Source: Actinomycetota bacterium
GTDB taxonomy: Bacteria; Actinomycetota; Acidimicrobiia; Acidimicrobiales; Iamiaceae
DNA: 36,952 bases
Direction: 5' to 3'
Assembly: GCA_019639095.1 (NCBI GenBank)
Contig: JAHBSN010000005.1
Location: 1 to 36,952, forward strand
Each line of letters starts with the position of its first letter. The first letter of the stretch is position 1. Under the pieces are notes generated by a model, which worked only from the letters and a program-made list of their open reading frames with translations, made no database searches and was not told where the DNA came from. This document shows positions 23,844 through 25,900 of this stretch, piece by piece. A program made the translations under genes and the position numbers.

Positions 23844-23857
23844 GCCCCGTCAGGGGC
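23844..23857. terminator. short hairpin between convergent asd and mazG-like genes
   Basis: GCCCC, loop GTCA, GGGGC. It overlaps the stop codon of the mazG-like gene and could serve both strands. The stem is only 5 bp. Confidence 0.3.
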
Positions 23858-24131
23858 AGGCGCAGGGGATGGCGGCGCAGCGTGGGCAGCCCCCGGCGTA
23901 GCGCGCCGCGGCGTCCTCGAGCGACAGGTCGAGCTGGTGGGCCAGCGAGGCCAGCCAGGCCAGGACGTCGGAGAGCTCGTGGCGCTGCTCGGCCACCGTG
24001 CCCTTGCGCACCGCCTGGGCCAGCTCGCCGAGCTCCTCGCACAGCCAGGCCACGGTGGCCGCCTGCCCTCGGGCCCGGTCTCGTTCGCCGTAGGTGCGGG
24101 CGATCACGTCCTGGAACTCGTCGAGCTGCAC
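23850..24131 (-). CDS. MazG-like protein with cysteine-rich tail
   Basis: 93 residues. The helical MazG/all-alpha NTP-PPase pattern is visible: AWLCEELGELAQAVRKG (acidic residues 32, 33 and 36) and RHELSDVLAWLASLA (Glu52, Asp55), giving the EExxE ... ExxD metal site. Members hydrolyse nucleotide triphosphates to monophosphates, often cleaning up abnormal nucleotides. The tail has CPRCAAIPCACP (82-93), four cysteines that could bind zinc. The GTG start at 24131 is 6 bases after TAGGCT, so the message is probably leaderless. It faces away from the IS110 element. Confidence 0.75.
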   Translation of the reverse strand: MQLDEFQDVIARTYGERDRARGQAATVAWLCEELGELAQAVRKGTVAEQRHELSDVLAWLASLAHQLDLSLEDAAARYAGGCPRCAAIPCACP

Positions 24132-24161: not shown

Positions 24162-24172
24162 TAACCTCCGCA
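24162..24172 (+). other. left target half-site and core of the IS110 insertion
   Basis: TAACCTCCG (24162-24170) lies just outside the element and is repeated exactly in the left-target-guide position of the bridge RNA (24211-24219). CA at 24171-24172 is the proposed core, repeated at the other end (25441-25442). The first six bases, TAACCT, also fit a -10 box. Joining the flanks (…TAACCTCCG-CA-AAGCC then ATG) would place this box 10 bases before the pemK-like start. Confidence 0.65.
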
Positions 24173-24178
24173 TCAGTG

Positions 24179-24345
24179 TCACGCTGGTGGTTGCCCGGGA
24201 GCTTGGCTCGTAACCTCCGTGCCGTTGATGGCAGTCATGCTTTCTGCCGGCTCCCGGACGCGCAGAACCGGCCGGCGTGGCTTGATAGGAGCGTGGCATC
24301 GCCCCCACTGAGGTGTGCCCACCGACCGGTTCTGGTCCGGATCAC
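24179..24345 (+). ncRNA. predicted bridge RNA of the IS110 element
   Basis: Two stem-loops are visible. Target loop: CCGGGAGC (24195-24202) pairs with GCTCCCGG (24250-24257); inside, TAACCTCCG (24211-24219) equals the left flank, a TGCC/GGCA hairpin follows (24220-24233), and GCTTT (24239-24243) is complementary to AAAGC at the right flank. Donor loop: CAGAACCGG (24263-24271) pairs with CCGGTTCTG (24326-24334); inside, ATAGGAGC (24285-24292) equals the right end plus the first core base (25434-25441), and CACTGA (24306-24311) is complementary to the left end TCAGTG. The order of the four guides matches known IS110 bridge RNAs. Exact 5' and 3' ends are approximate. Confidence 0.8.
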
Positions 24346-24370
24346 CAACGTGAAAGGCGACCAGAGCCCC

Positions 24371-25432
24371 ATGATCACCCTCGGAATCGATGCGCACAAG
24401 CGCACCCACACCGTCGTCGCGGTCGACGACGTTGGACGCCAGCTCGGCACCAAGACCACCACCGCCACGACCAGCGAAGACCACTTGGAGATCATCCGGT
24501 GGGCCGACCGATTCGGCCCGGACCGCAGGTGGGCGGTCGAGGACTGCCGGCATCTGTCGCGGCGTCTTGAGTCCGACATGCTCGCCGCTGGTGAATGCAT
24601 CGTCCGGGTGCCACCGAAGTTGATGGCCCATGCCCGTGACTCGGCGCGCACCTACGGCAAGTCCGACCCGATCGACGCCTTGGCGGTCGCTCATGCGGCG
24701 TTGCGCAACCCGGACCTGCCGGTCGCTCAGCTCGACGGCCCAGCTCGTGAGCTTCGCCTGCTGGTCGATCACCGTGAGGACCTGGTCGCGGAGCGGACCC
24801 GTTGCCTCAACAGGCTTCGCTGGCATCTCCATGAGCTCGATGCGTCGTGGGACCCGCCAGCGCGTTCGCTCACCGCGGTGAAGAACCTCGACGCGATCGC
24901 TGTCCGGTTGGCGAGCTTCGATGGTCCCGTCGCGCGCATCGCCGCAGAGATCGTCGAACACGCCCGCAACCTGACCGTTCGCGAACGAGCGCTGGAACGC
25001 GAGATCACCGACATCGTCAACGAGCTTGCTCCGACGCTGCTCGCCCTCGTCGGGGTCGGAGCGCTCACCGCCGCCAAGATCGTGGCCGAGACCGCGGATG
25101 TCCGCCGGTTCAAGCACAAAGACGCCTACGCCCGTCACAACGGCACCGCCCCCCTGCCGGTGTGGTCAGGCAACCGCGACCGGCATCGGCTCTCCCGCGC
25201 CGGGAACCGACAGCTCAACGCCGCGATCCACCGCATCGCGATCACCCAGATGCGCTGCCACGACGACGCCATCGACTACCTCGAGCGGCGCATGACCCAG
25301 GACCACAAGACCAAGACCGAAGCACTCCGAACCCTCAAGCGAAAGCTCTCCGACGTCGTCTACCGGGCCCTGCTCGCCGACGCCCAACCCGCCCGAACAG
25401 CCCCCGCAGACTTGCTCGCGGCCGCCGCTTGA
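24371..25432 (+). CDS. IS110-family transposase (DEDD RuvC-like plus serine domain)
   Basis: 353 residues. The N-terminal DEDD RuvC-like domain has Asp7 (LGIDAHK), Glu57 (AVEDCRH), and Asp99 and Asp102 (GKSDPIDALAVA). The C-terminal Transposase_20 domain has the LLALVGVGALTAAKIVAE hairpin region and the serine-containing WSGNRDRHRLSRAGNRQLN, with Ser266 the probable nucleophile. Such recombinases use a bridge RNA from the left end to join donor and target at a dinucleotide core. No frameshift or stop interrupts it, so it may be active. The stop codon lies in TTGA of the right-end motif, 8 bases inside the element boundary. Confidence 0.95.
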   Translation: MITLGIDAHKRTHTVVAVDDVGRQLGTKTTTATTSEDHLEIIRWADRFGPDRRWAVEDCRHLSRRLESDMLAAGECIVRVPPKLMAHARDSARTYGKSDPIDALAVAHAALRNPDLPVAQLDGPARELRLLVDHREDLVAERTRCLNRLRWHLHELDASWDPPARSLTAVKNLDAIAVRLASFDGPVARIAAEIVEHARNLTVRERALEREITDIVNELAPTLLALVGVGALTAAKIVAETADVRRFKHKDAYARHNGTAPLPVWSGNRDRHRLSRAGNRQLNAAIHRIAITQMRCHDDAIDYLERRMTQDHKTKTEALRTLKRKLSDVVYRALLADAQPARTAPADLLAAAA

Positions 25433-25442
25433 CATAGGAGCA
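25427..25442 (+). other. right end of IS110 element with embedded ribosome-binding site
   Basis: GCTTGA-CATAGGAG then core CA. The bridge RNA carries GCTTGA-TAGGAGC at 24280-24292. AGGAG (25436-25440) sits 7 bases before the ATG of the pemK-like gene, so the mobile element itself now supplies that gene's Shine-Dalgarno. Confidence 0.65.
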
Positions 25443-25447
25443 AAGCC

Positions 25448-25900
25448 ATGGCTCCCCTCGGCTCGCTCCGTCGCCTGAAGGATCGGGTCGCCTCCTCGCT
25501 GCGCAACCGCACGGAGGCGTCGGGAGGCATCGTCGTCTCCTACGCCCCCGAGCGCGACGGCGACGCCGATCCGGGTGAGGTGGTCTGGACGTGGGTGGCC
25601 TACGAGGACGACCCGTCGCAGGGCAAGGACCGGCCGGTGCTCGTGCTCGGTTGGGACGGGCCCCTGCTCGCGGCGGTGCCGCTGTCGAGCAAGGACCACG
25701 CCAGCCGGCGCGACGCCCACGAGTGGGTGCCGGTGGGCACCGGCGCGTGGGACCGGGACGCCCGGCCCTCCTACGCCGACGCCTCGCGCCTGTTGCGGGT
25801 GCCGCCCGACGCCGTGCGCCGTGAGGGCTCGGCGCTGGACGAGGTCCGCTTCCGCGAGGTGCTGGCCCGCGTGGCCGACCTGCACGGCTGGCGCGCCTAG
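25448..25900 (+). CDS. PemK/MazF-like toxin-family protein
   Basis: 150 residues. An N-terminal basic helix (RRLKDRVASSLRNR) precedes the PemK-like core: GEVVWTWVAYEDDPSQGKDRPVLVLGW and LAAVPLSSKDHASR, the 'G.V.w....d...gK.RP.lVl' pattern of the family. Classical MazF/PemK proteins are mRNA endonucleases held by an antitoxin; this actinobacterial branch is often found alone, and no antitoxin gene is seen beside it. The ATG at 25448 is 5 bases after the IS110 core, and its ribosome site (AGGAG) belongs to the element. Its presumed original -10 box is now about 1.27 kb away. Confidence 0.75.
   Translation: MAPLGSLRRLKDRVASSLRNRTEASGGIVVSYAPERDGDADPGEVVWTWVAYEDDPSQGKDRPVLVLGWDGPLLAAVPLSSKDHASRRDAHEWVPVGTGAWDRDARPSYADASRLLRVPPDAVRREGSALDEVRFREVLARVADLHGWRA

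Follow-up and report, generated by a model that had tools for sequence, protein, structure and literature searches.

The IS110 element and its insertion site

The DNA stretch analysed here (the window) comprises positions 1 to 36,952 of contig JAHBSN010000005.1 (assembly GCA_019639095.1) of an actinomycetotal bacterium of the family Iamiaceae. It carries an IS110 insertion sequence, from a group of such elements that occurs mainly in Actinomycetota, inserted between a -10-like box and the start codon of a PemK/MazF-like gene (Table 1). As judged from base matches, the left target guide of a predicted bridge RNA in the element reads the -10 box (TANNNT) and the right target guide the start codon.

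The putative recombinase, described in an earlier sequence-only reading of the window as an intact DEDD-Ser transposase that could be functional and programmable, has both domains of the family (Pfam DEDD_Tnp_IS110, 8.8e-25; Transposase_20, 7.2e-18). When it is aligned with the ISCro4 structure (9t56), D7, E57, D99, D102 and S275 coincide with the conserved acidic residues and serine. A DEDD RuvC-like domain combined with a Transposase_20 domain bearing the catalytic serine is typical of the IS110 group, as are a long non-coding left end before the transposase gene and the lack of terminal inverted repeats, both found here. The left end holding the two RNA loops is 173-198 nt long, and the element ends are TCAGTG and GGAGCAAA. 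The arrangement of the IS1111 group, with the guide in the right end and subterminal inverted repeats, was not found, as 12 nt (25433-25444) follow the transposase stop. The right end contains the left-donor site and a Shine-Dalgarno (SD)-like AGGAG (25436-25440) that comes right after this stop.

Table 1. Features of the element and of the host sequence on both sides, in window coordinates
Feature	Position	Strand	Basis
Left target in host: TAACCT -10-like box (24162-24167) and CCGCA	24162..24172	+	directly 5' of the element
Whole IS110 element, 1272 bp	24173..25444	+	begins with T of TCAGTG, ends with A of CAAA
Left end, right-donor half-site TCAGTG	24173..24178	+	complementary to right donor guide
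Predicted bridge RNA, target-binding loop, stem CCGGGAGC/GCTCCCGG	24195..24257	+	covariation
Left target guide TAACCTCCG	24211..24219	+	flank match; family permutation test
Right target guide CATGCTTT	24236..24243	+	complementary to GCATG at the host start codon (CATGC part) and to AAA of the right-end tail (TTT part)
Predicted bridge RNA, donor-binding loop, stem AGAACCGG/CCGGTTCT	24263..24334	+	RNAalifold, pair counts
Left donor guide ATAGGAGC	24285..24292	+	identical to right end 25434-25441
Right donor guide CACTGA	24306..24311	+	complementary to 24173-24178
IS110 transposase/recombinase, DEDD and catalytic Ser, intact, 353 aa	24371..25432	+	Pfam; alignment with ISCro4 9t56
Right end TTGACATAGGAGCAAA	25429..25444	+	constant among relatives; overlaps transposase stop TGA 25430-25432
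Right target in host: GCC, then start codon ATG (25448-25450)	25445..25450	+	orthologous uninterrupted sites, same genus
Host gene with targeted start codon, PemK/MazF-like, 150 aa	25448..25900	+	Pfam PemK_toxin 1.2e-8

A predicted bridge RNA with covarying guides

Relatives were collected with a DNA pattern from the conserved donor loop, chosen after a single-protein scan of genome contigs had given no match. The pattern yielded 50 loci in species genomes, mostly of Actinomycetota, and right-end searches in 21 genomes added further insertions. The sequence-only reading had proposed two tandem stem-loops in the left non-coding region and suggested covariance folding of related leaders. In an alignment of 33 distinct leaders of relatives, spanning both loops, the stems are kept. 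RNAalifold predicted 45 pairs, with both sides changed in 16 of them; a structure of 35 pairs drawn by hand showed compensatory changes in 14 pairs, compared to 6.9 +/- 1.5 in shuffled alignments and 2-6 when the structure was slid along the alignment. Most of the covariation comes from the target-loop stem, where 9 of the 14 pairs of helices 2 and 3 changed in a compensatory manner and 96-97% of the cells are paired. The donor-loop stem is almost invariant (helix 5, 98% paired). Helix 6 of the hand-drawn structure (193-196/231-234) was mis-registered, with 54% pairing, and is not claimed. Rfam contains no family matching the leader RNA.

The guides in the two loops match target and donor in the order proposed before: left target, right target, left donor, right donor. 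All matches, including those of ATAGGAGC and CACTGA to the element ends, could be read back from the sequence, and both donor guides change together with the ends they match. Among more distant relatives, left donor guide and right end read AGAGGAGC and AGAGGAGC in Rhodococcus plasmids, ATAGAAGC and ATAGAAGC in L196. Right donor guide and left end read CACTCA and TGAGTG in L009, L071 and L081, CACTGG and CCAGTG in Rhodococcus (plasmids; L189), and ATTGA and TCAAT(G) in L196.

The left target guide follows the -10 box

The left target guide is identical to the left flank 24162-24170, as the sequence-only reading had noticed. A 9-base match of this flank to the shuffled leader occurred in 0.2% of the shuffles. 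That reading had also suggested a search for copies in which the guide changes with the flank, and 53 distinct insertions show that it does: the left guide agrees with its own left flank in a mean of 7.4 of 8 bases, compared to 4.7 in shuffled pairs. This corresponds to 392 matched bases versus 249 +/- 8, a value reached in none of 20,000 shuffles.

The guide has the form TANNNT in 43 of the 53 insertions, and in 42 of these 43 the TANNNT box lies at most 13 nt from the element. Within this class the bases NNN plus the next two, taken alone, still match at 183 of 210 positions (96 +/- 7 in shuffles, 0 of 20,000 as high); the left-guide match is thus more than a shared promoter motif.

The window's own genome, a fragmented 4.0 Mb assembly of 475 contigs, contains one complete copy of the element and no second. 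Three other contigs (C265, C227 and C445, loci L002, L003 and L004) end in left-end fragments of sister IS110 elements, which are probably collapsed repeats with unassembled right halves. TAGGTTC stands in all three left flanks and is also the left guide in the two fragments reaching that far; it differs from the guide of the window element.

The right target guide spans the element tail and the start codon

Right guides of 31 elements, taken from the leader alignment, match the right junction in 7.9 of 9 bases (shuffled 6.4 +/- 0.2; 0 of 5,000 as high). The reverse complement of the guide matches the tail of the element plus host bases, e.g. AAAC+CCATG. Guides containing CAT belong to start-codon sites in 24 of 25 cases, those lacking CAT in 0 of 6. 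Because the window has an extra host C (GCCATG), its match consists of GC and CATG with a 1-nt offset. The start codon is likewise at +7 instead of +6, with one extra host base before ATG, in L179 and L064, so the right match tolerates such an offset.

In relatives with several copies a constant tail after TAGGAG is followed by variable host bases of the form NC[AG]TG. In mycobacterial copies AAAC comes after TTGACATAGGAG, then NC[AG]TG or similar; six copies in genome G627, whose elements resemble that of the window, have CAAA and then [GC]C[AG]TG, and six in genome G638 have CAAC and then NC[AG]TG. The tail part of the right target guide tracks these sequences: TTT, GTTT and GTTG go with AAA, AAAC and CAAC, respectively. 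In IS621, the target loop pairs with incoming donor bases after strand exchange (PMC11208158), and by analogy this part of the guide would act like the IS621 handshake. The proposed complementarity between GCTTT (24239-24243) and AAAGC (25442-25446) holds as a match, but its assignment to the flank alone does not, as AAA is the right end of the element and only GC is host sequence. GCTTT was also too short as a reading of this guide; the full guide CATGCTTT includes CATGC over the host start codon.

Start codons as targets across relatives

Insertions lie between a -10 box and a start codon, always in the direction of the host gene, whose start codon is 6-7 nt 3' of AGGAG and 14-15 nt 3' of the transposase stop. 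Among 75 distinct right flanks, ATG or GTG follows TAGGAG at +6 in 59 and at +7 in 3 (together 62/75), and at least 80 open codons follow in 59, compared to a rate of 1.3% at random positions. Of 396 genomes sampled evenly across the phylum, 27 contain the 13-mer CTTGACATAGGAG, at 42 places in total, and [AG]TG comes exactly 6 nt after it at 19 of these places; the start codon in the window comes 7 nt after. A start codon was present in 26 of 28 insertions with a TANNNT-type left guide versus 1 of 10 with other left guides (Fisher 3e-6). All of the 20 sampled downstream proteins contained a Pfam domain (kinase, nitroreductase, phosphoglucose isomerase, aldehyde dehydrogenase etc.).

In the reconstructed target sites the -10 box is 6, 7 or 8 nt from the start (15, 9 and 5 cases, respectively), and SD-like tetramers occur in only 3 of 31. 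About one quarter of the M. smegmatis transcripts are leaderless, and TANNNT is the preferred -10 sequence in mycobacteria (PMC6448022). Given this short spacing and the rarity of SD sequences, the target sites have the anatomy of leaderless genes.

Some relatives belong to other target classes. Mycobacterial L017, L018 and L050, from the same element group, carry the guides CAAACCGAC and occupy sites CAAACCGAC/...AATNTTTGG...GCGAGTAAATC (here and below the slash marks the junction), a repeated intergenic sequence and not a start codon. In Ilumatobacter (Acidimicrobiales; L054, L058) the left ends start with a partly duplicated TCAGTGTGATG, the guide is CCACGCC/CCACTCC (alternative forms), the right flank GGGGGCACGG and the tail AGAG or similar. 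At L010, L196 and L197 the left flank is similar to the end of orfA from the IS3 family, and the next gene at L197 is annotated as IS3 family transposase; these IS110 elements probably have IS3 elements as their targets, which has also been reported for ISEc21.

On the other side of the insertion in the window lies a MazG-like gene (23850-24131, minus strand). Both this gene and the PemK/MazF-like gene are conserved in the genus.

Boundaries, empty sites and crossover

The left boundary of the element is constant among relatives. The right boundary is based on the tail CAAA of the six G627 copies, present also in a truncated copy from the same bacterial family (G017). Uninterrupted orthologous sites have no tail: CTACCGTTTT-CCCATG for L072, TACCGTCGAG-CCCATG for L079, TAGTCTCAC-CCTATG and TAGTCTCAG-CCCATG for L016, and TAGGATCGGG-CCATG and TAGTATCAGG-CCATG for L012. 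Therefore, the tail belongs to the element, and by analogy with these four mycobacterial-type empty sites we infer the boundary at 25444. The empty site of the window would then be TAACCTCCGCA/GCCATG. Uninterrupted orthologues of this site in the same genus read TAGCCTGCCGGGCC-GTG (G007) and TAGTCTCCGGCG-ATG (G010), with box-to-start spacings of 8 and 6 nt, compared to 8 nt in the window.

A core dinucleotide common to donor and target, typically CT in bridge RNA systems, was not found. The empty-site junctions are GG/CC, TC/CC and GC/CC, left flank and right end share their last dinucleotide in only 4 of 31 insertions, and at all four empty sites the product retains target bases on the left and donor bases on the right. 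Thus, either a common core is unnecessary or repair is strongly one-sided. Crossover probably takes place at a single position (donor A/T or C/T, target variable) with no shared core dinucleotide. The left-guide match and the crossover are separated by a variable gap of 2 to about 6 nt.

Proposed mechanism and alternative explanations

We propose that the recombinase, directed by the bridge RNA guides, places the circular element between the promoter and the start codon, a position that would result from a left guide copying the -10 box and a right guide complementary to the start codon and the base or bases preceding it. The host -10 box, which insertion leaves directly 5' of the left end, may then drive transcription of bridge RNA and transposase from about the beginning of that end. 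The interrupted gene would become the last gene of this transcript and be translated from AGGAG of the element, so that insertion does little harm. We are confident, short of certainty, in guide-directed insertion at leaderless genes, between -10 box and start codon, including promoter use, SD supply and single-position crossover. That the lineage is programmed for core promoter and start codon, takes the host promoter, gives an SD sequence, recombines without a core and has a flexible left gap appears to us slightly more probable than its opposite.

Several points weigh against this proposal. The bridge RNA, the use of the host promoter and translation from AGGAG are all deduced from the sequence, and the leaderlessness of the targeted genes is deduced from spacing. 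The empty site of the window is derived not from an insertion-free strain but from orthologues with about 77% identity, and the right guide of the window fits the host only with the 1-nt offset. About 13 of the 75 insertions lie away from start codons (10 with another guide type, the others unresolved or unread).

The sequence-only reading had placed a CA core (within GCA) at the junctions and taken TAACCTCCG-CA-AAGCC (empty site TAACCTCCGCAAAGCCATG) as the insertion site, with nothing special about the target. GCA does stand at both junctions of the window copy, but the bases after TAGGAG remain constant in multi-copy genomes while the left flanks differ, and they are missing from the empty sites; together with the agreement in only 4 of 31 insertions, this contradicts both core and empty site, and we give this version hardly any credence. 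Purifying selection on insertions is general, and an in-phase insertion with a restored SD sequence would be tolerated; the location at start codons might hence reflect survival only, other insertions having damaged genes and been lost, with guides that do not choose the site. Against this, the guides track their individual flanks at the level of single bases, even inside the -10 class, and elements whose guides differ occupy other sites, which makes this explanation very improbable. A less remote alternative is that AGGAG serves donor recognition only, its place before the host ATG being a by-product and the interrupted gene silenced or expressed at a low level. AGGAG lies within the left-donor site to which the donor guide pairs, and this alone would account for its conservation. 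However, the guide positions the start codon exactly as far away as required (6-7 nt), and neither a stop nor a terminator separates transposase and host gene. Furthermore, another register of the right target guide would break the spacing, yet three tail types keep it. We regard this alternative as unlikely, albeit worth keeping in mind.

Comparison with known systems and implications

The IS110 family and the bridge RNA mechanism are known. The element shares with IS621 a DEDD and serine recombinase, a non-coding RNA in the left end with target loop before donor loop, four guides that agree in order and strand, and the handshake pairing between the right target guide and the incoming top strand of the donor (PMC11208160, PMC11208158). 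Unlike IS621, which targets a repeat, it targets a -10 box and a start codon, has no shared CT core and shows a variable gap of 2-6 nt between left-guide match and crossover. In contrast to the junction promoter of IS621, its -10 box lies in the host target; at the junction of right and left end (TTGACA-TAGGAGCAAATCAGTGTCACGCTGG) no TANNNT was seen at a usable distance from TTGACA, judged by eye only. ISCro4 (PDB 9t56), the only relative with a solved structure found by sequence (E 3.9e-7), is distant in sequence. With ISEc21 and the seekRNA elements of IS1111/IS110 type the element shares a non-coding guide RNA that picks the target by two matches; the targets of those elements lie within coding or repeat sequences, not at promoter/start-codon junctions (PMC11187229).

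Targeting of translation starts has a precedent in IS900 of Mycobacterium avium subsp. paratuberculosis, also an IS110 family member, with the target motif CATGNNNNNNTCTCCTT, i.e. SD sequence and start codon (PMC8141618); 'IS900 targets translation initiation signals' is the title of Doran et al. 1997, as cited there. Unlike the IS900 target, which already has an SD sequence, the present targets lack one (28/31) and carry a -10 box, and the element brings the SD sequence. In the literature searched we found no guide RNA reading of IS900, and a search excluding preprints and most subscription journals gave no report of an IS110 element with promoter and start-codon guides or leaderless targets.

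The element represents a natural case of a predicted bridge RNA that addresses a signal for gene expression and not a repeat, which would explain how it can enter before many different genes, leave them unbroken and still be transcribed itself. The many guides, flanks and empty sites amount to a natural experiment on guide rules. The findings also point to IS110 recombinases able to work without matching CT cores, a property relevant to the use of these enzymes as programmable tools, and they offer a mechanism for the older reports of a preference of IS900 for translation starts.
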